Positions 2,080-56,889 of a stretch of 64,000 nucleotides of DNA are shown in pieces (the first letter of the stretch is position 1; every line of letters begins with the position of its first letter). The stretch is from assembly GCF_000287335.1 (NCBI RefSeq), contig NC_018419.1:186001-250000 (forward strand), written 5' to 3'. The notes under the pieces are model-generated. The model did not search any database, was not told where the DNA came from, and saw nothing but the letters and a program-made list of their open reading frames with translations. The translations under genes and the position numbers were made by a program. The stretch comes from a secondary endosymbiont of Ctenarytaina eucalypti (GTDB lineage: Bacteria > Pseudomonadota > Gammaproteobacteria > Enterobacterales > Enterobacteriaceae).

Positions 2080-2839
2080 GTAACGTCTACTCAGAGTAGG
2101 TAGTGCAGCCACCTACCGTAAACTACTCATTCGTAAGTGATCTGATGTAGCGGATTTTTTATCTCTTTGCATATCTAGTACTTTTACCGCGATCAGTTAC
2201 TGCCGAGTAGGCTAATGTTTATGCGTATCACGCATCTGATCATAATGTCCGCTTTTAATCAATGATCGCCAAAAATTAATCAGGCGTGTTTTTCTTCAAA
2301 CTAAGTAATTTTTTCTTTCTTGGTCAATATTATCTAAAGATTTACTATGACACTATTTATCACCTCGATCCGCGGTTCTTATGCCACTTTCTCTGCTAAA
2401 TAATTCGAATCTAAACGCACTTCTAACGTCTAATATACAGACTCGAACCTATTATGCTCGATCAGTTGTACCGTTAACGACGCTAGTGTTTTTAGTAGCG
2501 GCAGAGGAGAACAGTTTGGCTGCACAATACGCTAATGCCTGGCAACGTTAAGCATATAACTCCTGCGAAAAAAATCGTTTTTACGTTAAGGCTATTTTTC
2601 AACGCTATCTACTTTTCATCTTGGGTCATCTATGTTCTTCATGCCCTGATACGGTATTTTCATCTTATGTCATCTCAGTATGAAGAAAATCTCATTTCAT
2701 AACGCATACATTTTTTCCGCTCGGCAAAGGTTTATCGAGAATGGGTTGGAAAAAGGATGCTCGCTTGTCTCTCAGATAGACGACTATAACTTTAGCCTCA
2801 AATCGTCGCGTGCTGGACTAGAGTAGAGAAGAGTGACCC
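2080..2839. other. Non-coding gap, nothing recognised
   Basis: About 760 AT-rich bases between a transposase relic and the yfaE remnant. No gene, RNA or clear repeat was seen. Confidence 0.45.
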
Positions 2840-3055
2840 CTATACTGACAAATGCTATTCATCTTTTTATGACATTTCATTTTTCCAATCAGTAGGGAAC
2901 AGCACTCAGGCTCCGAAGTATCTCGAGTGAACTGAAGTTCAATATAACCCCCTTTTTTTTAGCTTCGTCAACTCTAGCAGTAAGCGACGGAGCTATGTTT
3001 TTATGCAAGGAACATACGATGAGTAGTTTTGCTGAAGGCAGGTGATAGATGTTTT
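2840..3055 (-). pseudogene. yfaE: Possible yfaE remnant (ferredoxin for NrdB)
   Basis: Directly downstream of nrdB, where E. coli has yfaE, the minus strand shows broken fragments: P-S-L-x-L-L-E (family H-P-S-L-L-x-A-L-E) near 2970, then a glycine-valine segment and R-Y-F-G-A-stop, which lines up with the iron-sulfur motif G-Y-C-G-S-C-R near 2915. Single-base shifts separate the pieces. YfaE is a 2Fe-2S ferredoxin that maintains the diferric-tyrosyl cofactor of NrdB. The reading is by eye and weak; position and fragment order are the main support. Confidence 0.35.
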
Positions 3056-3057
3056 AG

Positions 3058-4188
3058 TCATAGCTGGCAGTCAATCAGATCGTCGCTGTTAATTTCGGCG
3101 TCAATCTGCCCTACTAGATAAGAGCTTACCTCTACCTCCTGCGGCGCTACCTGGACGTTATCCGAGACCAGCCAGGAGTTAATCCAGGGAATTGGATTGG
3201 AGCGGGTGTTAAAGGGAAGAGACAAACCTACTGCCTTCATGCGGGTATTGGTAATATATTCCACATATTGACACAGGATTTCTCTGTTCAGGCCGATCAT
3301 CGACCCATCTCGGAATAGATAGTTTGCCCAATCTTTTTCCTGTTGCGCCGCTAACAGGAAAAGAGCATCACTGTCCTGCTGGCATTCGCGCGCAATCTCA
3401 GTCATTTCAGGATCGTCCTCACCTGAACGCATTAGGTTTAGCATATGCTGAGTACCGGTCAGATGCAGTGCTTCATCTCGGGCGATCAGACGAATAATTT
3501 TGGCGTTTCCCTCCATCAGTTCACGTTCGGCAAAGGCGAACGAGCAGGCGAAACTAACATAGAACCGGATTGCCTCCAGCGCATTGACGCTCATAAGACA
3601 AAGATAGAGCTTTTTCTTCAGCTCATGAAGATTTACTACTAGAGCTTTACCGTTGACTTGATGAGTGCCCTCTCCTAGCAGGTGATAATAGCTGGTCATC
3701 TCTATAAGACCATCGTAGTAACCAGAAATATCCTTCGCGCGTTTTAGGATCTCTTCATTGGAGACGATATCGTCGAACACGAGCGATGGATCGTTAACAA
3801 TGTTGCGTATAATGTGGGTATAAGAGCGTGAATGGATGGTTTCTGAAAATGCCCAAGTTTCCACCCAAGTTTCCAGTTCCGGTATTGAAATCAGCGGAAG
3901 AAGCGCTACATTAGGACTGCGGCCTTGGATCGAATCTAGTAGCGTCTGGTACTTAAGATTGCTAATAAAAATATGTTTTTCGTGCTCTGGTAGCGCTTGA
4001 TAGTCGATGCGATCGCGCGACACATCTACTTCTTCTGGGCGCCAAAAGAACGAGAGTTGTTTCTCAATCAGCTTCTCAAAAATATCGTATTTCTGCTGGT
4101 CGAAGCGGACAACGTTAACTGATTGACCGAAAAACATTGGCTCCAGCAGCTGGTTATTTTGCACTTGTGAAAACGAAGTATAGACCAT
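3058..4188 (-). CDS. nrdB: Ribonucleoside-diphosphate reductase 1 subunit beta
   Basis: The 376-residue product has the same length as E. coli NrdB and is collinear with it. It forms the diiron-tyrosyl radical needed by NrdA to make deoxyribonucleotides. Visible are the radical-tyrosine context H-S-R-S-Y-T-H-I (about residue 122) and the iron-ligand segments W-A-F-S-E-T-I-H and R-D-E-A-L-H. The ATG has GGGAGC eight bases upstream. nrdA ends 49 bases before it, so the two form an operon. One oddity is the C-terminal tail, which docks into NrdA: it ends D-D-L-I-D-C-Q-L where the E. coli tail ends D-D-L-S-N-F-Q-L, so the phenylalanine is replaced by cysteine. The ferredoxin gene yfaE that normally follows is decayed. 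Confidence 0.97.
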
Positions 4189-4237
4189 AAAAGCTCCCGT
4201 TACATACAGGCAGTATCGTTACCACCCGCGTTCATAT

Positions 4238-6520
4238 TCAAATCTTGCAGGCGCCGCTTTCGCAATTATTCGGATGCGCCGACTGCATGTCTTCCTGGGC
4301 GTCTTCCGCACCGTCGCGGGTATTTTGGTAATATAGCGTTTTTATCCCGAATTTGTACGCCGTTAGCAAATCCTTTAATAGTTGCTTCATTGGCACTTTT
4401 CCGGCCGGAAAACGGGACGGATCGTAATTAGTGTTAGCAGATATAGCCTGATCGACGAATTTCTGCATTACTCCCACTAAGTGAAGATACCCGTCGTTGC
4501 TAGGCATCTCCCAGAGCAGCTCATAGGCCTCTTGTAAACGGATGGAATCAGGTACGACCTGGCGAAGAATGCCGTCTTTAGAGGCTTTAATACTTACCAA
4601 GCCGCGTGGTGGCTCGATGCCATTAGTAGCGTTGGCAATCTGCGATGAGGTTTCCGACGGCATCACTGCCGATAGGGTAGAGTTACGCAAGCCGTGCTGC
4701 AATATGTTTGCTCTCAGCGCTTCCCAGTCGTAGTGCAGCGGTTCATTAACAATGCTATCGACAGCTTTTTTGTAGGTTCCGATAGGTAAAATACCCTGTG
4801 CATAAGTGGTTTGATGAAACCATGGGCAAGCACCGCGCTCGTGGGCTAAGTCATTGGAAGCTTTCAGCAAATAGTACTGAATGGCCTCAAAAGTGCGATG
4901 GGTAAGGCTGTTAGCGCTACCGTCTGAATAGCGTACGCCATGCTTAGCAAGATAATAAGCAAAGTTGATCACCCCCACACCGAGGGTACGACGTCCTCTG
5001 GCGCTGCGCTTGGCTGCTGGGATCGGATAGTCTTGATAGTCTAGCAGCGCATCTAAGGCGCGAACAACAAGCGTCGCTAACTCTTTTAAGTCATCTAAGT
5101 GATTAATCTCTCCTAGGTTGAAGGCTGAAAGAGTGCACAGGGCGACTTCACCGTTGTCGTCGGTAAGATGTTTTAGGGGGTTGGTGGGAAGAGTTATTTC
5201 CAGGCATAGGTTAGATTGTCGAATCGGTGCTACCGCTGCGTCAAATGGGCTATGGGTATTGCAATGATCTACATTCTGTACATAGATGCGTCCAGTGGAA
5301 GCGCGTTCTTGCATCATCAGTGAGAATAATTCTACTGCCTTGATGCGGTGCTGGCGTATGTTTGTGTCTTGTTCATACTGAGTATACAGCCGCTCAAATT
5401 TCTCCTGATCGGAGAAGAATGCGTTATACAGTCCCGGTACGTCGGAAGGGCTAAATAAAGTGATGTCTTGACTCTTGACTAGTCGCTGGTACATCAGTTT
5501 ATTAATTTGTACCCCGTAATCGATATGGCGAACCCGATTGGCTTCCACGCCACGGTTGTTTTTTAGCACCAATAAGCTTCGCACCTCCAGATGCCAGAGG
5601 GGGAAGAACAGGGTGGCTGCGCCGCCACGCACTCCGCCTTGCGAGCAGGATTTGACGGCGGTCTGAAAATGTTTATAAAATGGAATACATCCGGTATGGA
5701 AAGCCTCTCCGCCGCGGATCGAGCTACCCATCGCACGAATACGGCCAGCGTTAATACCAATTCCCGCGCGCTGGGAAACGTATTTTACGATCGCGTTGGA
5801 GGTGGCGTTAATAGAATCTAGGTTATCGCCGCATTCGATGAGAACGCAAGAACTGAATTGACGGGTCGGCGTACGTACGCCCGACATAATCGGCGTCGGT
5901 AGGGAAATTTTAAATGTCGAAACCGCTTCATAAAACCTTTTGACGTAGTCAAGGCGCGTTGTGCGCGGGTAGCTAGAAAACAGGCAGGCGGCTACTAACA
6001 TATAGAGAAATTGAGCACTCTCATATATCTTACCAGTTACACGGTTTTGCGCCAGATACTTTCCTTCAAGCTGTTTGACAGCGGCATAGGAGAACTTCAT
6101 GTCACGCCAGTGATCAATCACCGCGTCCATCTGATCAAAGTCATCAGCACTATAATCTGTGAGCAAATGTTTATCATATTTCCCCATGCTGACCAGCCGT
6201 GATACGTGATCATAGAGTCTCGGAGGTTCAAAACAGCCGTAGGCTTTTTTTCGTAAATGGAATACTGCCAACCGAGCTGCGAGATACTGGTAGTCAGGCG
6301 CCTCGTGCGAAATCAGGTCCGCCGCGGCTTTGATGATGGTTTCCTGAATATCAGAGGTTTTGATGCCCTCGTAGAATTGGATATGGGAACGCAATTCTAC
6401 CTGGGAAACGGAAACATTTTCTAGCCCTTCTGCTGCCCAGTCGATGACTCGGTGGATTTTATCGAGGTTAATCTCTTCTTTACGTCCGTCGCGCTTGGTG
6501 ACTAGGATAATCTGATTCAT
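4238..6520 (-). CDS. nrdA: Ribonucleoside-diphosphate reductase 1 subunit alpha
   Basis: A 760-residue class Ia ribonucleotide reductase large subunit (E. coli 761). It reduces NDPs to dNDPs with NrdB. All catalytic positions can be seen: the first redox cysteine in Q-F-S-S-C-V-L-I, the thiyl-radical site S-N-L-C-L-E-I, the partner cysteine in E-V-A-L-C-T-L-S-A-F-N-L, the radical-relay tyrosines in T-L-Y-Y-Q-N-T-R-D-G, and the C-terminal shuttle pair C-E-S-G-A-C. The N-terminal ATP-cone (about residues 5-95) is present. It leads the nrdAB operon. About 320 bases separate it from ubiG; E. coli has yfaL there, and it is absent. Confidence 0.97.
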   Translation of the reverse strand: MNQIILVTKRDGRKEEINLDKIHRVIDWAAEGLENVSVSQVELRSHIQFYEGIKTSDIQETIIKAAADLISHEAPDYQYLAARLAVFHLRKKAYGCFEPPRLYDHVSRLVSMGKYDKHLLTDYSADDFDQMDAVIDHWRDMKFSYAAVKQLEGKYLAQNRVTGKIYESAQFLYMLVAACLFSSYPRTTRLDYVKRFYEAVSTFKISLPTPIMSGVRTPTRQFSSCVLIECGDNLDSINATSNAIVKYVSQRAGIGINAGRIRAMGSSIRGGEAFHTGCIPFYKHFQTAVKSCSQGGVRGGAATLFFPLWHLEVRSLLVLKNNRGVEANRVRHIDYGVQINKLMYQRLVKSQDITLFSPSDVPGLYNAFFSDQEKFERLYTQYEQDTNIRQHRIKAVELFSLMMQERASTGRIYVQNVDHCNTHSPFDAAVAPIRQSNLCLEITLPTNPLKHLTDDNGEVALCTLSAFNLGEINHLDDLKELATLVVRALDALLDYQDYPIPAAKRSARGRRTLGVGVINFAYYLAKHGVRYSDGSANSLTHRTFEAIQYYLLKASNDLAHERGACPWFHQTTYAQGILPIGTYKKAVDSIVNEPLHYDWEALRANILQHGLRNSTLSAVMPSETSSQIANATNGIEPPRGLVSIKASKDGILRQVVPDSIRLQEAYELLWEMPSNDGYLHLVGVMQKFVDQAISANTNYDPSRFPAGKVPMKQLLKDLLTAYKFGIKTLYYQNTRDGAEDAQEDMQSAHPNNCESGACKI

Positions 6521-6838: not shown

Positions 6839-7612
6839 TTATTGGCGAAGCGCTGAAACGTATGACTCTTTTCGGTGCGTATGCAACATATAATTCACAT
6901 CTACATTGCTGCCCAAATAAAAATGATCCCACAGTAAATTGTAATGCACACCAATAATATGCCTCTCGCTCAGAAGCGTTTCATCCACCCAACTTAGCAG
7001 CTCGGCAGGTTTAATGAATCTATTGATATTATGCGTGCCCTTCGGAACCATACGCAGTACATATTCGGCACTAACAATAGCTATGAGCCAAGCCTTCGGG
7101 GTTCGGTTGATGGTTGAAAAAAACACCTCTCCGCCCGGCTTCACTAGTCCTGCGCAAGAGCGGACGACCGACTCCGGATCTGGCACATGCTCTAGCATTT
7201 CCATGCAGGTCACTACATCATATGCACAGGCATGTGAATCAGCGTGCGTTTCTACCGTCTCCTCGCGATAATCTATGGCCAAACAACCCGTCAGTGCGTG
7301 TAGGCGGGCAACTGCAAGCGGTGCTGCGCTAATATCCAGTGCGGTCACTTCCGCCCCTTCTCGGGCCATACTTTCCGCTAAAATCCCCCCCCCACATCCG
7401 AGGTCTAACACGCTTTTCCCAAACAGCCCTCCAGCGCGTTCAAGAATATAATTTAAGCGTAGCGGATTGATGCGGTGTAGCGATTTAAATGCGCCGTCAC
7501 AATCCCACCAATGGGAGGCTATGGCGTCGAATGTAGCGATTTCGTCCGGATCGACGTTTTCCTGAGTGGGAGGGGCATTATGTTGCACTGTCTTACTTAC
7601 TTCAGGGACCAT
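6839..7612 (-). CDS. ubiG: Ubiquinone biosynthesis O-methyltransferase
   Basis: UbiG carries out the two O-methylation steps of ubiquinone synthesis using S-adenosylmethionine. The SAM-binding motif [16 protein letters not shown] is intact, as are [10 protein letters not shown] and [11 protein letters not shown] chose the ATG at 7612 rather than the in-frame ATG at 7630, because AGGAG lies seven bases upstream of 7612 while nothing similar precedes 7630; this gives 257 residues (E. coli 240). The extra length is in the variable N-terminus. The gene is divergent from gyrA, as in E. coli. Confidence 0.94.
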
Positions 7613-7829
7613 ATAATACTCCTGATACATGTTATCGTTTAAATATATGTGAACACGGACTTTCTGGGCGCTGGAATTCTCGCGAGGCCGGTGTTATCGA
7701 CGTCACTGCGGTTGATATGAAATAATTCTTATACACCTGCAATAGTGAGCAGGCCCTTTTATAGAAAAAATGGTATACTTTAATACCTTTAAATCCGGGT
7801 AGAAGCTTTATTTAAGGGATGGCGGCTCC

Positions 7830-10951: not shown

Positions 10952-11399
10952 GCGTCATGCAATGCTAGGTCATCCGGTCATGAGGGAGGTTTTTTTGCAT
11001 CAATGAAAAATGCGGTATGGCCGCCTTGACAGCGCGTTCTCTCTCCCATATTTTCGGTGTGCAAAAGACCTAACAACCTAATCTTATCGTGAATAATGGT
11101 CTCATAAACTTAGGTAACCACTAAGTCGTTTCGTTAACCAGTAGCGTGCTATTTCTGAAAGTTAGGGAAGATAAGAAACTAATTTCTGCAGTTTAAATAT
11201 CATGAGTGTCGTTTAAGAAATATTTTAAATAAATTGAAAATTTCACTAATAAGTAGAAAAGACTATTCCCTTTATTCAAAAAATAATCGCTTTACTTAAG
11301 CAAAAACGTACCGTAAACGACTAGGCTAATCACAAGATAGCCCTCACACCACTACTTTTCTCTAAGAGAATAGAGAAATGATGTAGATACTGTCTACAT

Positions 11400-11665
11400 C
11401 TACAGGAAAAGCACTCGCTGTAGCTGTCGAAGAAGAAGATTATATAACTCAGATTGGGGTATTAGCAGAAGGAATACGTTCAGGCGATTTTTTAAATTAT
11501 ACGTCAGTCGGTAAGATGTTCAGGCTAGTGTGTGCGCAACACTCGAGAAAAGATTTTTAATAGTCGCATAAAACGTCAATACGTGTGACATTATTTATGT
11601 AGTGATTAATGGCACTGGACTGAATATTTTTAGTGAAATAACATAAAAGGTTCTAATAGTATTTA
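11400..11665 (+). mobile_element. IS903-like transposase relic (copy 3)
   Basis: A stop-free stretch of about 50 codons from 11400 includes I-R-S-G-D-F-L-N-Y-T-S-V-G-K-M, which aligns with the L-R-A-L-Q-G-F-V-D-S-I-F-K-L-M segment of IS903-type transposases. H-S-R-K follows (S-R-R). Another frame then gives I-N-G-T-G-L-N-I-F-S-E at about 11615, matching I-D-G-T-G-L-K-I-F-G-E around the first catalytic residue. The aspartate has become asparagine and stops are present, so it is dead. A similar DNA string occurs near 33710 (copy 7). Confidence 0.6.
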
Positions 11666-27951: not shown

Positions 27952-28635
27952 TTAAGATAGCGCCAGAATCTTCCGGATGTGAGCCAACGCGTTAACTATC
28001 ACTTCATCGATCGTCATTCGGGTGGAGTCGAGCATTAGCGCGTCATCTGCCGGTAGCAGTGGTGCTACGGTCCGATTGCGATCACGATCGTCACGTTCCT
28101 TGATTTCGGACAAAAGGTGTAAAATGTTAACGCTAACGCCTTGTTTGTGCAACTGCCACATGCGTCTACGCGCTCTTTCTTCCGACGACGCGTCAAGAAA
28201 GATCTTTACCAGTGCATCGGGAAACACCACAGTTCCCATGTCACGGCCATCGGCGATGAGCCCGGGCGAAGCGCGAAACGCACGCTGACGCTGCAGTAGG
28301 GCTTCACGTACACGAGGAAATGTGGCAATATGCGATGCGGCACTTCCGACAGCCTCGTGACGGATAGCCTCGCTGACTTCTTCCCCCTCGAGCAGCACTG
28401 TCATCTGACCGTGTGTTACATTGAAGCGAACATCGATCTGATCAGCAAGTGGCACTAATGCCTCTTCGCTGTCAATAGCGACCTGCTTATACAGGGCTGT
28501 CAGTGCCATGCTTCTGTAGATCATGCCAGAATCTAGTAAATGCCATTTTAACGCTTGTACCAATGCTTTACAGAGCGTTCCCTTTCCTGCGCCACTTGGC
28601 CCGTCAATACTGATGACCGGGGCTATAAGCATCAT
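27952..28635 (-). CDS. cmk: Cytidylate kinase
   Basis: Phosphorylates CMP and dCMP with ATP. The P-loop [15 protein letters not shown] opens the 227-residue protein (E. coli 227), followed by [25 protein letters not shown] and the lid [18 protein letters not shown] precedes the paired ATG codons at 28635 and 28632; either may be used. It heads the cmk-rpsA-ihfB group. The aroA gene normally just upstream is a relic. Confidence 0.96.
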
Positions 28636-28759
28636 TGCCTTCTCCTTTATAAGCCAATGAGTGTAAAATCCTCAGGAACATATGAGGCTTGAAAGTGAAT
28701 TACTATACCGTTAATGACATCTAAACCTTGCTCTTACTTACTATTTTAACGCTTCGTGC

Positions 28760-29430
28760 GACTATGATCGTGCTCTTGAAACTATCTGTCGGGAAAAATT
28801 AGACAAATTTCTTGATACATTAGGGCCTAAGACTGCTTACCTCTATATTCAGGGAGATCATTTTATCCCTACTTAAGAGAGGTTGTGCCCACTATATGCT
28901 GCTTGGTTGCTTTTGAGCGTCAACCGACACGTCTCTTTGACATTTCGGTCTGGTAATCGCACTCAGCACAGTAGTGTTTCCGCTGGCGACGAGTGCGGTA
29001 TTAGGGATGCTAAGCAGTGTGTCAAGGATAAGATTTATGTCTGCGTGCAACGTCATTGTTGCCCTGGTGAACAGTCGCGCTCATCCTCCGCTCGAGGGAT
29101 ATGGCGAGGCGCATAGTACCATGGGTACACTGTAGTAACCAATAACTCTCATGCTGATGGTGCACCCGAGAGCCGAGGATTTTCTTGCCACTGATAAAAA
29201 TATAACCTCCCTGAAGGCGCCTAAACCTTAGATAATTTCTAGACGCACGGCATGCTCTGTTATCGGGTCGGTTAAACACCTAAAAAGCATTATGCCTCAC
29301 CTCGATACTCAAGTCTGCAATCAAGGTCTAATTAACGTTAGACTGATGGTACTATCAAGTAGAGACATCTTACCGTAATTGTAGATTAGGGTGTTTCGTG
29401 GTGTTGCTATCAATATTTCTGTTTTTTATT
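28760..29430 (-). pseudogene. aroA: aroA relic, central and C-terminal part
   Basis: On the minus strand, fragments of 3-phosphoshikimate 1-carboxyvinyltransferase occur in order. G-E-A-stop near 29310 (G-E-P-R-M-K-E). N-Y-L-R-F-R-R-L-Q-G-G-Y near 29215-29250 (N-Y-P-P-L-R-L-Q-G-G-F). K-S-Y-P-stop-H-T-A near 29020 (K-P-Y-I-D-I-T-L), with DNA very close to the family codons. Finally F-F-P-T-D-S-F near 28785 (T-F-P-D-Y-F-E). Stops and frameshifts are frequent. AroA makes EPSP in the shikimate pathway; the loss blocks chorismate synthesis unless a partner supplies the step. Position between serC and cmk matches enterobacterial order. Confidence 0.6.
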
Positions 29431-29689
29431 ACATGCATTTAAGGAGAAGAAAAGTTTATCATTATCACATGGTCCCTTACTATGCATGTGACTCTCAAGC
29501 ACTGCGATATTTTTTACAGTTGTGGATATAAAAAATAGCTAAGCCATCCCGCGATAGAAATAGATAACCGCTCTTTGATACTATAATCAACTATTGCCCC
29601 ACTCAGATCAGCCGATCACCGCGGTGCTAATAAGCTGTTTTTAATACACACAATGTTACAATAATGAGGGTATTAGCTAAACCTTGGTC

Positions 29690-30350
29690 TGCTACCAAGG
29701 AATGCCGTTGTGCGTTTCTAAGCATTCCTAGCAGCGCAATGTGCTCAACTGCTTTTACCATTGCGATCGATGACCCTGCTTCTCATTATAGTTATACATA
29801 ATCAAATGACGACTCAGAAATCTTTTGAACCGCCTCACCGGGTCTCGCCAGCGAAAGCCCGCTGATGGTATTCATGTTATTTCTAGTGATCATTGTTGAT
29901 TTTAAGGTATTGATCTTAATTCATATAATGACTTTTATTTCATGAAGTGAGAAAATGTTTTGCTTTCCCTCTAGCGGAATAAGTGCTTTTTTCTTCTGTA
30001 AAATAGTGGCATGTGAGGCATGTCATTAACGTATATCACATAGCTGGAACCCGCCGCCTGCCGGCTGCTTTCACAGATTTTCTCTATTAAATCTGGAAGG
30101 ACGGGGCTATCGGCTGTATTACTGTGCGATAAAGCAGCATAAATAATTTTCTATCTTACTATGCACTGCCAGATATTGATTAATACCTACAATATTCTGC
30201 CTTCTCCATGCTTCTGGCTTGCAGATTCTCCTGCGCTAAAAAATTTTAGGTTCTTGCTATCCATCACTGATGTATAATATCATTTTCTGTTTCTATTGTT
30301 ATTCTAATATTGAGTATACAAGCTTGCTTGCTCATCGAGGACTTTTTCGA
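29690..30350 (-). mobile_element. IS903-like transposase relic inside aroA (copy 10 of this list, best long copy)
   Basis: Reading down the minus strand: D-G-x-x-x-P-K-I-F near 30250 (D-G-T-G-L-K-I-F). L-A-V-H-S near 30150 (L-A-V-D-S). T-A-D-S-P-V-L-P-D-L-I near 30110 (T-T-D-A-Q-A-L-P-G-L-I). Y-R-R-K-K-H near 29985 (L-L-R-K-K-I). E-Y-H-Q-R-A-F-A-G-E-T near 29860 (G-Y-H-R-R-S-L-A-E-T). F-K-R-F-L-S-R-H-L near 29825 (F-K-T-L-L-G-G-H-L). A-M-V-K-A-V-E-H-I-A-L-L-G-M near 29740 (A-M-V-K-A-L-N-R-I-T-L-L-G-M). The series covers roughly residues 90-300 of a 307-residue IS903-type transposase, with stops throughout. Terminal repeats were not identified. Confidence 0.75.
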
Positions 30351-31599
30351 GCTAATTAGCACGTTCTATTATACGTTAAACAGCAAGTCAACTAAATGCT
30401 GTATCTGCTTTTCCCCTCGCAACACGCTGTATTTTTAGCTGATCACTTATAGCGTAGTGATATCTTAATCTAAGCAGTTACCCGAGAGGTAGGAGGTTTA
30501 AGACGGAGTTTTTCTACCCATCCTGATGTATTAAAATCAAGAATCTTATACTGTCAGTGCAATAACCCCGTTAGTCTCCTCAAGTACCAGCATGACCTTC
30601 AATCTCATCAGAAAACGGCACTTCTGAGAAGATAGGCATTTTCTATTAAAATCTTTTAATAAAACAGTACGCTTTGTTATAATGCAAAAATTTTTGGTCG
30701 TTCACCAATAGCTAGTGCATCGATTTATGCGTTCTGAACATCAGGCTATTTTAGAGCGTGAGTGTTACTGGTTACTTCGTAATATTAAATATTTGCTATC
30801 TCTAGATAGGGGGGACGTTTTTATAATAACTCTTGTGCACTGTGCTAATAGTTAACTCAGGTTTTAATGTATTGACATCATAGTCATTTAAGCTGAAGGA
30901 ATGATCCCTAAAAGACAGGTTCTCGAAGAAACTGAGTGGGCGAAAACCGTCTTTTCCAACGCAACGGACTAATGGTTGTTGATTTAAAGTTACGCTGATA
31001 ATGAGAAAGATGCAGAACACTATCGCGTCATAGACCATAGCCGGATGACTATGTTGTTAACCATGCCTCACATTGCCTAAATCATGTCACGATACCTCCG
31101 CTGAGAGTGCACACAGCTAAATTTTAGTGTTTTCAAAAATACGTGCACCTAAGAGCATATTTCATATGTTACACAACGTATAACAAATGACATTTTGTCC
31201 GTACCACTGTCTGTAGCCTGATGTAGTAAACTGTTTGAAATGTACCAGAACAGCATTTAGGCTTACTTTAGTAAGACTCCCGCACTATTCCTACATCATA
31301 ATTTCTTTACAATATTAATTATATTTTAGTGTATATCTGATTGAGCGAACTGACAAGGCACGTGGGGATAGAACGTTTGGAAGTATGGCTTATAAATCTA
31401 GGATTAGACGGTTGTTATCAAATAACTATCATTCACAGCTTCATTTGGCATGTTACCACAATTGAAGAGAACATAAAAATTTTTTATAGTAAACTGATAA
31501 ATATAATCAAAGTGCAGTCAATTTATATATGCTTCTTCAATAAAAAAATTTTAAGTGCGTCACGACGCAGGTTGTAGTAAATAAGTAATACGTGACCAA
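30351..31599. other. Undefined DNA within the disrupted aroA region
   Basis: About 1.25 kb between the readable transposase relic and the aroA 5' remnant. The lower part probably holds the transposase N-terminus. Frames of 78 codons at 30802-31038 (minus) and 31341-31577 (plus) have no recognisable family. Confidence 0.4.
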
Positions 31600-31756
31600 A
31601 GAAACAAGAAGGTCATTCTTGAACAGCAGTCTCGGTAGAAGAATGCTATTCTAGAAGGGCGAAGTGAAATTAAGGCTAAGATTCTATATGTAAGAAAAAC
31701 TCTAGACGAAGATAACATTACGAGCTAGACCCCGGGTCCGACTGCAGTCAGCGACG
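31600..31756 (-). pseudogene. aroA: aroA relic, N-terminal part
   Basis: Starting within four bases of the serC stop, the minus strand reads S-L-T-A near 31750 (AroA E-S-L-T-L), then V-M-L-S-S-S-R near 31715 (I-N-L-P-G-S-K), then T-Y-R-I-L-A-L-I-S-L near 31685 (S-N-R-A-L-L-L-A-A-L). It breaks off after about 50 codons. The next recognisable aroA piece is 2.2 kb away instead of the expected few hundred bases, consistent with the insertion-sequence relic between them. Confidence 0.5.
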
Positions 31757-31757
31757 G

Positions 31758-32843
31758 CTACGCGTGTCGGCGTATAAACCCCAACATAAAGTTGACCAGC
31801 GCCTGCAAGCCTGACAGAGGCATGGCATTATACAGTGATGCGCGCATCCCTCCTGCGACTCGGTGCCCATTCAAAGCATGCAGCCCCGCGGCCTGGGATT
31901 CTTGCAAAAAGAGCTCATCAAGATTGCTGTCCAGCAATCGAAATGGCACGTTCATGCACGAGCGATTCTCCGATGCGACAGTATTGTGATAGAACGCGCT
32001 CTCGTCAATAGTGCGATATAACAGTGATGCCTTGAGCTGATTACGTTTATGTATTTCTGCTAGCCCGCCCTGCGCTTTTAGCCATTTAAAAACTAGACCC
32101 GAAAGATACCAGGCGAATGTCGGTGGTGTGTTGAACATAGAATGATTTTGGGCCAGCACGCTATAATTGAGAGCGGAAGGTAGCATTGTAGCTGCGCGCC
32201 CGAGTAAATCCTCACGCACGATGACCAGTGTCAGCCCGGCCGGCCCAATATTTTTCTGCGCGCTAGCATAGATTACTCCAAAGCGGCTCACCTCTAACGG
32301 ACGTGATAGAAGCGTGGAGGAACAGTCCGCAACTACTACCCGGTCGCCGAAATCCGGCGTTTCATTAATGGCAAGTCCGTCAATAGTTTCATTTGGGCAA
32401 TAGTGCACATATGCGCTGTCAGGTGACAACTCCCAGTCTTTCATCGGTTTAATACCTTGCCTTCCATGGATTTTAATGCTAACGTCGATGATTTTTAAAG
32501 CACAATATTTTCGTGCTTCTTGTAGTGCGCGGTGAGCCCAATAGCCACCATCGATATAATCGGCGTGGGAGGCACCCCCTAGAAGATTCATAGGAACTGC
32601 GGCGAATTGCATACGGGCGCCGCCCTGGCAAAAAAGAACTTTATAATTTTCAGGGATGGCGAGTAGCTCGCGTAGGTCTTGTTCGGAAGATTGCGCTACT
32701 TTGAGAAATTCTTTACTGCGATGACTGACCTCCATCACCGACGTACCCAGGCCATTCCAATTACATAACTCTTGCTGTGCTGTTTTCAAGACTTCTATCG
32801 GCAGCATAGCCGGGCCAGCACTAAAATTAAATACCTGATTCAT
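31758..32843 (-). CDS. serC: Phosphoserine aminotransferase
   Basis: Converts 3-phosphohydroxypyruvate plus glutamate to phosphoserine; it also acts in pyridoxal phosphate synthesis. The 361-residue protein (E. coli 362) starts [11 protein letters not shown] and carries the pyridoxal-phosphate lysine in [11 protein letters not shown]. It also has [17 protein letters not shown] and [16 protein letters not shown] precedes the ATG. In relatives it is co-transcribed with aroA, which here is destroyed. Confidence 0.96.
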
Positions 32844-37129: not shown

Positions 37130-37560
37130 GGATCAATTAATTGATTAAGCATGCGCAAGTAGCCTAATAGCTCTTAGCCAACACTTACCCTATTTTGTAG
37201 ATAGGCTCTTCTTTATCAACTTTTAGTAGAGCCCTTAGGTGATGGGGAATGCTGCGCCATAAATCGGCGCAGATCATTTTATATAGCGTGCTATCCGAGG
37301 TGAGATGTAATGTACCCACACTCTGTATTTATCAGCTTTCGCCTTCCTGGAAAGGCTATGCGCCTTCACTAAAAAATTTTAGGCCGGTACTATCAAGAAC
37401 GAGATTAATAATTTAACCGCGTGTTGACGTTTTTATGCTGATCTTTACCGCTATTGCTTGCTTGCTGAGCAATAAATTTTTAGGTACCTTATCGGTAGCA
37501 AAATGCGTTAATACATTACGTTAACGCATCCTATTGGCCTCTTAGCTAGCGCGTGCAGCA
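37130..37560 (-). mobile_element. IS903-like transposase relic (copy 9, best preserved motifs)
   Basis: Minus strand, almost one frame: V-P-K-N-L-L-L-S-K-Q-A-I-A-V-K-I-S-I-K-T, then S-T-R-G-stop, near 37430-37490 (C-P-D-Y-S-L-V-S-R-R-A-K-T-V-D-I-S-I-K-T). L-V-L-D-S-T-G-L-K-F-F-S-E-G near 37390 (L-V-I-D-G-T-G-L-K-I-F-G-E-G). L-H-L-T-S-D-S near 37300 (L-H-L-A-V-D-S). I-C-A-D-L near 37270 (I-C-A-D-L). A L-A-K-S-Y context follows. Several in-frame stops make it dead, but codon spacing is largely intact over about 130 residues. Confidence 0.75.
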
Positions 37561-53563: not shown

Positions 53564-55371
53564 CAATATACATCCCGCTGATAACGGCGCTCAATGCGCA
53601 GCTCACTTAAGAATTCATCCGCCTGCTCAACATGCATGTTGCCGTGCTTAGCCACCACGGCCAAAAGTGCCTGCTCTACATCACGGGCCATGTGACGAGC
53701 ATCACCACAGACATAAATATGCGCGTTCTGCTGGATCCAGTGCCACACTTCGGCACCCTTCTCTCGAATTCTATCTTGTACATAAATTTTTTGGGCTTGA
53801 TCACGCGACCAGGCAAGATCGATGTTACTTAATAGTCCTTCTTTCACATAGCGCTGCCATTCTACCTGATAGAGAAAATCATCAATGAAATGCGGATTAC
53901 CGAAAAAAAGCCAATTTTTTCCAGGGGCGCCGTCGGCTGCGCGTTGTTGCAAAAATGCCCGGAACGGAGCGACCCCCGTACCTGGTCCTATCATAATAAT
54001 TGGCGTATCGGGATCGCTCGGAAGACGAAAGTTATCATTGTGCTCAATAAATACACGCAACTCATCTTCCTCCCTTAATCTATCAGCCAGAAAGCTGCTG
54101 GCGCCGCCGCTGCGACCACGACCATTAATTTCATACCGCACGACACCAACCGTAATATGCACTTCTTCCCCAACGTCAGCCTGCGACGAAGATATCGAAT
54201 ACAGGCGCGGTGTAAGAGGGCGAAGAAGTTTTAGAAGCTGCTCAGCGCGCAGCGCAATAGACGCGTATCGCACCATATCGACAATTGGAGTGGCTAAGGC
54301 AAAATGTTGTAATTTCGCCTGGTCTTGCACAACCGACGAAAGCAAGCCCCCTCCTACTAGGTTAGTATAGCCCTCTACTAGAGCTGGGGTGTTGTGCGTC
54401 AGCTCGTAATGTTTTTTCAGAGCTTCGCTAAGGCATAGGGTCTTCCCCGCTATGTCAACTGGTTCGTCGCCCTTCAGCAACAGCAGCTCTAACAATTCAT
54501 TGATTAACGCGGGATCGTTTTCATACCATACCCCCAGCGCATCACCAGGCTGATAATGCAGCCCTGAATCAGCCAGATCAATTTCTAGATGGCGCACATC
54601 TTTCAGAGATTCCCGGCTGGTGATTTTTTGATTCAGCAATAAATGCGCGCTAAGAGGCGCGTTTTTGGTGTAAGAGCTAACATCAATATTATTGCTATTA
54701 GAACCGACAGACACTTTTTGTTGAACTGGCCTAGAGAGCTCTACCCACGCCTTTAGCCGTTCTACGATTGCAGTACGCCAGGCCTCAGCCTGCAACTGGT
54801 AGTTTACATCAGCGTCTACCCTATCGTGTAGACGCTGTGCCCCTAACTCAGCGAGCCTGCTGTCGAAATCTTTGCCGGTTTTAGCAAAGTGTTGATAGGA
54901 GCGGTCGCCGAGGCCGAACACCGCAAAGTGCGTATCTGTCATCGCCGGTGCTTTTTTAGAAAATAGATATTTATAGAGCGCGATCGCTTCTTCCGGAGGA
55001 TCCCCATCTCCTTGCGTAGAAGTTACTACTAGTAGTACTTTTTCCTGTGACATGTGCTTGAACTTATAGTCGCCTGCCTTAATCAGGACCACAGCAAGCT
55101 GTGCGGCGATCAAATCATCACGGAGTTCCTCAGCAAGCTGCCGCGCGTTACCGGTTTGTGAGGCACTAAGCAACGTAATGGGCCTCACGGCAGAGATGAT
55201 CTCTGGAGGTAGCACTCCGGCACGGGGGGGATGACTATCGGCTACCTGCCCCCAAAAATAACCAGAAATCCAGGCTAACTGTAGGGGCGAAAGATCACCG
55301 GCCGCTTTCTGAAACTGATCAAGCTGCTTCGCGCTTAGCGGCAGTGCTGTAGAGGGGACCTGTTTCGTCAT
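53563..55371 (-). CDS. cysJ: Sulfite reductase flavoprotein alpha-component
   Basis: Passes electrons from NADPH via FAD and FMN to CysI. Flavodoxin domain (about residues 60-210): [32 protein letters not shown] domain: [10 protein letters not shown] and [14 protein letters not shown] domain: [12 protein letters not shown] and Y-V-C-G-D-A. It ends R-R-Y-Q-R-D-V-Y. The start at 55371 (M-T-K-Q-V-P) gives 602 residues (E. coli 599). Two family positions differ (Q-G-E-G-E to Q-G-D-G-D; G-D-S-S-Y to G-D-R-S-Y), probably tolerated. It leads cysJIH, divergent from queD. Confidence 0.96.
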
Positions 55372-56889
55372 GGAGATAAGAATTTCCTTGTGCAGGCATA
55401 TGAGGCCGGGCAATTAAAGATTAGCGGGAGTTTTAAGGTTAACTAGTTGACGGTCGACAATAAAGGATGTGATGTGAATAATAAATAACTAAACATCATA
55501 AGGCATAAATAAGAGACCCGGTGCTTAATAAGACTTTTTGAAAAGCAGGCCTGCAGCAAAACCTATTGTGATGCGATGCAAATGGTTTTCTGTATGTTCT
55601 TTTCACAGCATGATCCGGGTAAGTGCTTTTACCAGGCTTATTGCATCGCCTTCCTACACACAACAGTTACACAGAATAATTCTATTAAACAGATCGGAAT
55701 ATAGGCAACTATTGGTTCAGCAAAATGTATTTATTTCATATCGATAGTCTCTAGGGACAAGAGAGAGTTTGCAATTATTCACTAATCTAGTTCCTAGCAA
55801 GCCGTTAGGCCACGCCAGAATCTAGTCAAATAGAGTATATATGACTTAACTATTGTTGCGCGGATAGAACATATCTTGCCTGAATAACATGGACGACTGC
55901 TGTGCTATTCAAATAAACCTATCATTAAGATAGTACTCGTGCATGGGATATTTGGCTCTTTCACCCCAGACTTTACCGGGCGACATTGACTCGATTTTAA
56001 CTTTATAAAGCTGCTACTTTAGATTAATAGACTCTGCTTTACTCAGTCATACAGAGTAAAGACGGGTACAGAATACCATGAAAAACGTGAACACGGGGCA
56101 AAAATAACTAATTGCGTTATGGGTCCTAGACTAAACCTGAAGCTTGTAGTAAAGAACCATAACAAGCTCGGAAATAAAGGTGTTAAAAAAATGTAAAGAA
56201 AGGCTTTCGCGCTATCTGGCAAGGACCAAAAAGATACATCAAATGCATTATTTTTTCTGATGTATAGTAATACTAGCATCACTTATTAACCGGCTCTACC
56301 AAATTAGATAAAGCACACGAACTAGACTACAAACGGGCTTCGGCCGACAACATTAATGATAGCCGCCCCTGCTGCAGCGGAAGCACCGTCTTAACTCATT
56401 AATAGGCTCAGAGTAAAGAGATAATTGAGCACAAGGATCAGGTTATTATTAATGAAACTTAAAGGACTAGATTAGTCTATCACTCATACTCACGGGTCGC
56501 GGCAGGCTTATGCAGGTCATTAGAGCCTTTCTAACCATACCAAAAGAATGGGGAGACCATGCAGAAAAATAATAGCGCTCACCGGACTCTAATGCATAAT
56601 ATGCTGAGAGACACTCCCCTCATTGCTGCGCAATTATCCTTATAAGACCCTATTCATCAGATAACTTAATTGCTTAATAAAGATTAAATAATACTTACAA
56701 TTACCGAGATGATCTGATAAAATATAGAAGTAACATTTACTTAACCTTAGACATCCGCCACCTAGTAGTGGGTAATCGGGCAACCAAGGGAAAAGTATAT
56801 TACCTCGAGAAATTCCGAGGAGGAGATACATAAAATTATCATGCACTCATAGTGTCTCTGCCGTGAATGTAGTACAATGAGAAAAGATA
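55372..56889. other. Long divergent gap between cysJ and queD
   Basis: About 1.5 kb. The end next to cysJ should contain its CysB-dependent promoter, but I could not define it. A hydrophobic 79-codon minus-strand frame (56043-56282) may be a membrane-protein fragment of unknown origin. No transposase motif was recognised. Confidence 0.4.

Follow-up and report, generated by a model that had tools for sequence, protein, structure and literature searches.

The window analysed here is a stretch of 64,000 nucleotides, bases 186001–250000 of the single 1,441,139-bp contig of a secondary endosymbiont of Ctenarytaina eucalypti. The genome is 99.98% complete and is labelled G000 below; coordinates without a prefix are window positions. 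The serC gene is located at positions 31758..32843 of the minus strand and encodes a 361 amino acid protein (NCBIfam serC, E 2.4e-149). The cmk gene is found at positions 27952..28635, also on the minus strand, and encodes 227 amino acids (NCBIfam cmk, E 7.2e-82). Both open reading frames score above the equivalog cut-offs and both genes are intact. The four best named relatives of the SerC protein are Sodalis symbionts, with 77–80% identity. Between the two genes is an interval of 3,122 bp (positions 28636..31757, minus strand) for which the list of open reading frames shows no long frame, and a scan of 28636–31757 shows no full-length AroA frame (~430 aa).

The gene order serC-aroA-cmk is found in the 72 relatives that were parsed out of 80 named loci; the other 8 loci were dropped because a motif was not found. 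The distance from the end of serC to the start of cmk in these 72 of 80 has a median of ~1,604 bp and a range of 1,483–2,364 bp, thus the interval here is ~1.5 kb longer than the relatives' median. A relic of aroA is present at positions 28861..29390 of the minus strand. It corresponds to nucleotides 564–1097 of aroA and displays stop codons and frame changes. The main nhmmer query, a DNA profile from 8 aroA genes, gives this match as its only one in the whole window (28861–29390 minus, E 1.4e-21). A profile of 79 aroA genes finds the same place (nhmmer, E 6.8e-10), and a profile restricted to Sodalis (4 aroA genes) matches positions 28882–29387 (nhmmer, E 3.8e-29). The translated pieces of the relic fall in different frames and are broken by stops. 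AroA homology is therefore present at the serC-aroA-cmk position, for the middle of the gene only. What remains here is the aroA of a Sodalis-like insect endosymbiont in a state of decay. Such a loss is nothing unusual in symbiont genomes that are shrinking, and young Sodalis-like insect endosymbionts display the same combination of a dead gene beside intact neighbours, an IS relic and loss of amino acid pathways.

Neither end of aroA is detectable in the interval, i.e. the first 560 nt and the sequence beyond nt ~1100. A search with aroA nucleotides 1–620 (nhmmer --max) gave no match beside serC. When nucleotides 1–560 from 9 relatives were aligned with the 1,080 bp on the serC side, 7 of 40 dinucleotide shuffles attained the summed local score; for the middle of aroA against its own relic 0 of 40 did so. 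With single relatives, no shuffle out of 30 came up to the score of the middle for L004, L005 and L006, and 9 of 30 did so for L072. The 5′ halves of aroA against the relic of the middle gave a score of 124.1 with a shuffle maximum of 121.8, which beats 40 of 40 and is marginal. When the 5′ halves were taken one by one, none of 30 shuffles attained the score of L004, and 2, 10 and 24 of 30 attained those of L005, L006 and L072, respectively. This above-shuffle signal, that of L004 included, sits only inside the relic of the middle and is thus of no help to the claim of a start on the serC side. An aroA 5′ end beside serC was tried by nhmmer, tblastn, a protein HMM and shuffled local alignment, and found no support in any of them. 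The stretch on the serC side has room for an aroA start. The DNA of the interval has no match in E. coli genomes, and its matches elsewhere in its own genome are short (best E 0.004).

An eroded transposase fragment of the IS5 family (ISRhba5-like), with two in-frame stops, is found at positions 30070..30267 of the minus strand. A six-frame scan with stops written as X shows NCBIfam NF033579 (IS5 transposase) at positions 30067–30327 minus (E 0.0073); the same type of scan with Pfam matched no family. In a tblastn comparison of window positions 30001–30450 with 72,556 plasmid records, 180 records matched. Among the best 20 of these 180 (best E 0.04), 15 are annotated as IS5 and 5 have no annotation; the annotations name an IS5-like element ISRhba5. 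Residues 119–185 of the ISRhba5 transposase align at 30070–30267 with 36% identity (tblastn, E 3e-5). Positions 37362–37487 carry another weak trace (E 0.018), and both E-values are optimistic, as the query was picked from the plasmid matches. Homology to the DDE transposase of IS5 elements is thus present, at a weak level and in residues 119–185. Unlike elements of the ISRhba5 type, the trace has only ~200 bp that are recognisable and no open reading frame. At the DNA level, positions 29300–31757 gave only two short matches to plasmids (E 0.2 and 0.7). Pieces around both traces match several loci of the genome, with E down to ~1e-10, which suggests an eroded repeat family; these loci were preselected for matching, and a tblastn search of them with ISRhba5 had a single match (E 0.6). 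The trace faintly indicates that an IS5 element landed in the serC-cmk interval and then decayed. Projection of a 310-aa transposase would place the element very roughly at 29.65–30.68 kb, where it would overlap the projected aroA start at ~29.95 kb.

The original prediction described a dead aroA between intact serC and cmk genes with its middle just before cmk, and all of this is confirmed by the frames and matches above. It also described the end of aroA just before cmk and the start right after serC, neither of which was recovered. The transposase that it placed in the interval has a counterpart in the IS5 trace. For lack of a detectable aroA start next to serC, there is no support for a split of aroA by the element, and the proposed order of insertion followed by decay is likewise a conjecture. 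A history in which a functional aroA was killed by insertion of an IS, after which both decayed and the 5′ part of aroA was left beside serC, is conceivable but doubtful. The IS5 trace and the additional ~1.5 kb speak for it, and the overlap of the projected element with the projected aroA start would mean that some of the 5′ sequence was displaced or deleted. However there is no 5′ signal on the serC side by nhmmer or by shuffled alignment, and many other genes of the pathway are also gone, so that no single causal event is needed.

The sole gene of the EPSP synthase family (PF00275) in the 1.44-Mb genome is murA, thus an intact aroA was not found elsewhere. The PF00793 match is KdsA, which leaves no candidate for a class I DAHP synthase. 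Profile searches of the genome gave no match for aroB, aroE, aroC and type I aroD. There is also no match for chorismate-using enzymes of PF00425, the family of TrpE, PabB and MenF. The profiles PF01264, PF01761, PF08501, PF01487 and PF00425 each have 0 matches in G000 and are positive in 14, 11, 14, 7 and 14 of 14 control genomes, respectively. Since these other genes and families are missing too, the loss of aroA is part of a pathway-wide loss for the families searched; type II dehydroquinase, class II DAHP synthase, chorismate mutase and UbiC are outside these families. The earlier expectation that aroA loss blocks chorismate synthesis is too narrow, in that further shikimate genes are missing. 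Chorismate, or compounds made from it, would have to come from a co-symbiont or the host. In psyllids, Carsonella and Sodalis-like symbionts are described as complementing one another, and the C. eucalypti symbiont as complementing tryptophan and arginine (PMC10654072).

One shikimate kinase match is left in the genome. The aroK gene is outside the window at G000:C1:1141312-1141833 and encodes 173 amino acids. The match to NCBIfam NF003456 is full length (residues 1–172, E 2.3e-99, 330 bits against a cut-off of 195). Identity to E. coli AroK is 150/173 (87%); the comparison values are 178/269 (66%) for Dam and 174/225 (77%) for Rpe. The usual operon neighbours aroB and damX, with the order taken from E. 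coli, have no tblastn match by aroK. Downstream of aroK, dam, rpe and a TrpS-like open reading frame (the last named by eye) are kept. The retained aroK was not foreseen in the original prediction.

The P-loop lysine, Asp34 and Arg60 are all present in this AroK, and Arg140 of the R-x-P-L-Y motif is replaced by Gly. Arg140 is equated with R132 of HpSK from the motif and the residue numbers, without a structural alignment. HpSK R132 is described as strictly conserved (PMC3306394). The R132A mutant has 5% activity in the table of that source and has lost activity according to its text, R132K has no detectable activity, and both mutants show no shikimate binding or heat by calorimetry (PMC3306394). 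With Asp34, Arg60 and the P-loop lysine kept, catalysis on another substrate is possible. Unlike the ordinary loss of a pathway in a symbiont, one enzyme is kept intact here and its substrate site is altered.

Two profile searches on the same set of 392 genomes of this family show an aroC match in 371 and a shikimate kinase match in 387. Of the 21 genomes without aroC (the 21st, G399, by elimination), 16 keep the shikimate kinase match; thus it has survived the loss of aroC, whose product performs the final step to chorismate, in 13 genera of one family. All 5 genomes without a shikimate kinase are also without aroC. The orphan AroK, i.e. that of a genome without aroC, was read in 7 genomes from 6 genera: G000, G021, G181, G165, G176, G049 and G271. 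These readings leave out 9 of the 16 orphans, namely G045, G144, G196, G226 and G399 and a further four in which an orphan aroK was not met in the part searched: G008 (560 of 2,034 kb), G098 (200 of 538 kb), G187 (120 of 298 kb) and G104 (300 of 628 kb). Pathway loss in orphans other than G000 and G021 is judged by aroC alone. In G021 aroA is missing as well, since PF00275 matches murA only.

All 7 orphan AroKs are open, full-length frames. Arg140 is lost in 5 of the 7, where the residue is G, N, N, C or Y; thus in 4 of the 6 genera examined the retained kinase is intact yet without the substrate-binding arginine. The change in G000 is R140G. The sequences of G021 and G181 show GVE in place of GGG at positions 81–83, together with R120K and R140N; that of G165 shows GAG in place of GGG, S18G in the P-loop and R140C; and that of G176 shows R120H and R140Y. 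G049 and G271 are unchanged at the residues checked. The controls, 25 aroC-bearing genomes and E. coli, have 0 of 26 altered at Arg140, Arg120, GGG, Arg60 and Asp34. By genus and with E. coli left out, the difference in Arg140 loss between orphans and controls has a Fisher P of 0.0005, in a test which treats genera as independent and whose controls favour well-conserved AroKs. The controls include 20 of 26 from the top of a score-ranked list and only two reduced genomes, G073 and G133, and the Arg140 contrast leaves out the AroKs of low-scoring reduced genomes that keep aroC, e.g. G005; loss of Arg140 may thus also occur in symbionts that have the pathway. The reduced G005, with aroC kept, has an AroK match as diverged by score as those of the orphans (E 1.1e-38). 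G133 itself has no more than a fragment of aroB.

In residues 1–112, the orphans that lost Arg140 have 75–107 of 112 identities to E. coli and the controls 91–112; in residues 113–173 the numbers are 23–43 of 61 and 43–60. Since the C-terminal part is more variable in both groups, this regional contrast gives partial support only.

G021 and G181 belong to one genus, have genomes of 0.48 Mb and are both without aroC. The two are collinear where compared (5 of 18 probes in order on 120 kb of G021, 92–94% identity). Between them aroK has 20 synonymous and 3 nonsynonymous changes, which gives a dN/dS of 0.03 and departs from equal rates with a Fisher P of 7e-13. The dN/dS of the nearby rpe is 0.15. 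This pair gives the only usable ratio, as dS is largely saturated in the other comparison. The codon changes indicate that AroK is maintained in G021 and G181 after the change of the substrate site.

A second function of AroK that does not need shikimate would be the most economical account of the retained gene, as far as can be judged from sequences. Such a function probably uses the P-loop and the N-terminal core, in which case the arginine binding the carboxylate of shikimate would be free to decay. A second activity of E. coli AroK was reportedly proposed by Vinella et al. in 1996 (J Bacteriol 178:3818). Deletion of aroK is described as lowering mecillinam susceptibility independently of kinase activity and as having no effect on tazobactam susceptibility (PMC12125205, citing Vinella et al. 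1996 for the former), and aroK is a listed mecillinam resistance locus (PMC5549755). A candidate for the function retained here is the activity by which AroK renders E. coli sensitive to mecillinam, which is likewise apart from shikimate phosphorylation. That activity is known as a drug phenotype whereas the evidence here is evolutionary, and we infer the link between them. The combined reading, a decayed aroA within a pathway-wide loss, with an IS5 trace, and an aroK kept for a shikimate-independent second function, appears probable. The wider reading, that AroK is bifunctional, that its shikimate-independent function is near a core function of Enterobacterales, and that pseudo-shikimate-kinases arose repeatedly in insect symbionts by loss of the substrate arginine, with the P-loop core under purifying selection, is evenly balanced between acceptance and doubt.

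Related to this, aroK is given as universal, though not ancestrally essential, in 34 endosymbiont genomes which include two psyllid secondary symbionts (PMC11481867). The section of that source dealing with aroK is without comment on the orphan state or on loss of substrate residues, both of which were tested here. Two of the seven orphans (G049 and G271) keep all residues checked, and residual kinase use, shared pathways or recent loss are therefore possible in these.

It may be that AroK phosphorylates shikimate obtained from a co-symbiont or the host and that shikimate-3-phosphate is passed on, but this seems rather improbable. A split of the pathway has been modelled for Buchnera and Serratia, where the partner keeps aroK, aroA and aroC together (PMC5702781), aroK redundancy has been noted in Tremblaya and Moranella (PMC4144094), and the two unaltered orphan AroKs would fit such an exchange. 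However with aroA and aroC absent the product would need export as the phosphate, and this genome and 3 further genera have lost Arg140. In addition, aroE is stated to be missing from all sequenced Carsonella (PMC10654072), thus the source of shikimate is not evident if the host is a psyllid. That aroK persists only through recent loss of the pathway, or through promoters in its DNA for the downstream dam, rpe and TrpS-like open reading frame, which are kept, is the least probable explanation, as aroA is eroded and aroB undetectable, the dN/dS of 0.03 in G021 and G181 points to selection on the protein with the substrate site already altered, and G176 has no dam or rpe match in 300 of 650 kb, the aroK stretch included.

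The second-function reading, if true, would make the orphan AroKs natural alleles for asking what the second activity is, and their separation of function would allow it to be mapped. The survival of the kinase match in 13 genera without aroC, together with the loss of Arg140 in 4 of the 6 genera examined, gives independent support to the 1996 proposal. Symbiont models in which an orphan aroK is annotated as part of shikimate metabolism may be mistaken on this point. Among the open-access matches listed, with subscription journals largely outside, there is no recognised prior report of an orphan AroK with a lost arginine.

Weak remnants of aroC are seen in G054 (E 6e-6) and G068 (E 7e-4), both of which keep the shikimate kinase. 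The AroK of G054 keeps all residues checked and is counted in neither group.

The source genome (G000) retains an intact orphan aroK, i.e. a shikimate kinase gene kept in a genome without an aroC match, at positions 1141312–1141833 of its contig C1 (positions 3313–3834 of the fetched stretch L115). Among the families searched, no match to the remaining shikimate-pathway families was found in this genome. The AroK sequence displays a glycine in place of Arg140 (E. coli numbering), the substrate-binding arginine of the R-x-P-L-Y motif (R132 in HpSK).

Orphan aroK genes are also present in two comparison genomes, G021 (L124, positions 10962–11483) and G181 (L203, positions about 2550–3070). Both AroK sequences are altered at three sites, the GGG, the LID Arg and the R-x-P-L-Y Arg. 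Despite these altered sites, the dN/dS for aroK between the two genomes is 0.03. A shikimate kinase match is absent from only five of the 392 family genomes, i.e. G078 and members of the genus g118 (G117, G227, G300 and G361), and aroC is absent from all five as well.

In comparison genome G054, aroB (L116, positions 3566–4609) adjoins an intact aroK, reaches no more than 30% identity in alignment and has no long open reading frame. The aroC of this genome is a remnant. G054 possibly represents an earlier stage of the same shikimate-pathway loss.

The window has an intact UbiG-like methyltransferase frame on the minus strand at positions 6839–7630, named by eye from the sequence, yet no chorismate route was found among the families searched; thus the symbiont may have to import a ubiquinone precursor.

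Downstream of serC in Candidatus Sodalis endolongispinus (L004), the aroA frame is 579 codons long and overruns the usual end into the cmk region, which suggests a 3′ frameshift. In another genome, of 0.5 Mb, an EPSP-synthase-family gene (G006, contig C1, positions 54299–55506) is split into two adjacent, overlapping matches, 1–202 and 201–417.

A second, weak IS5 transposase trace is found on the minus strand of the window at positions 37362–37487 (ISRhba5 residues 90–131, E-value = 0.018).
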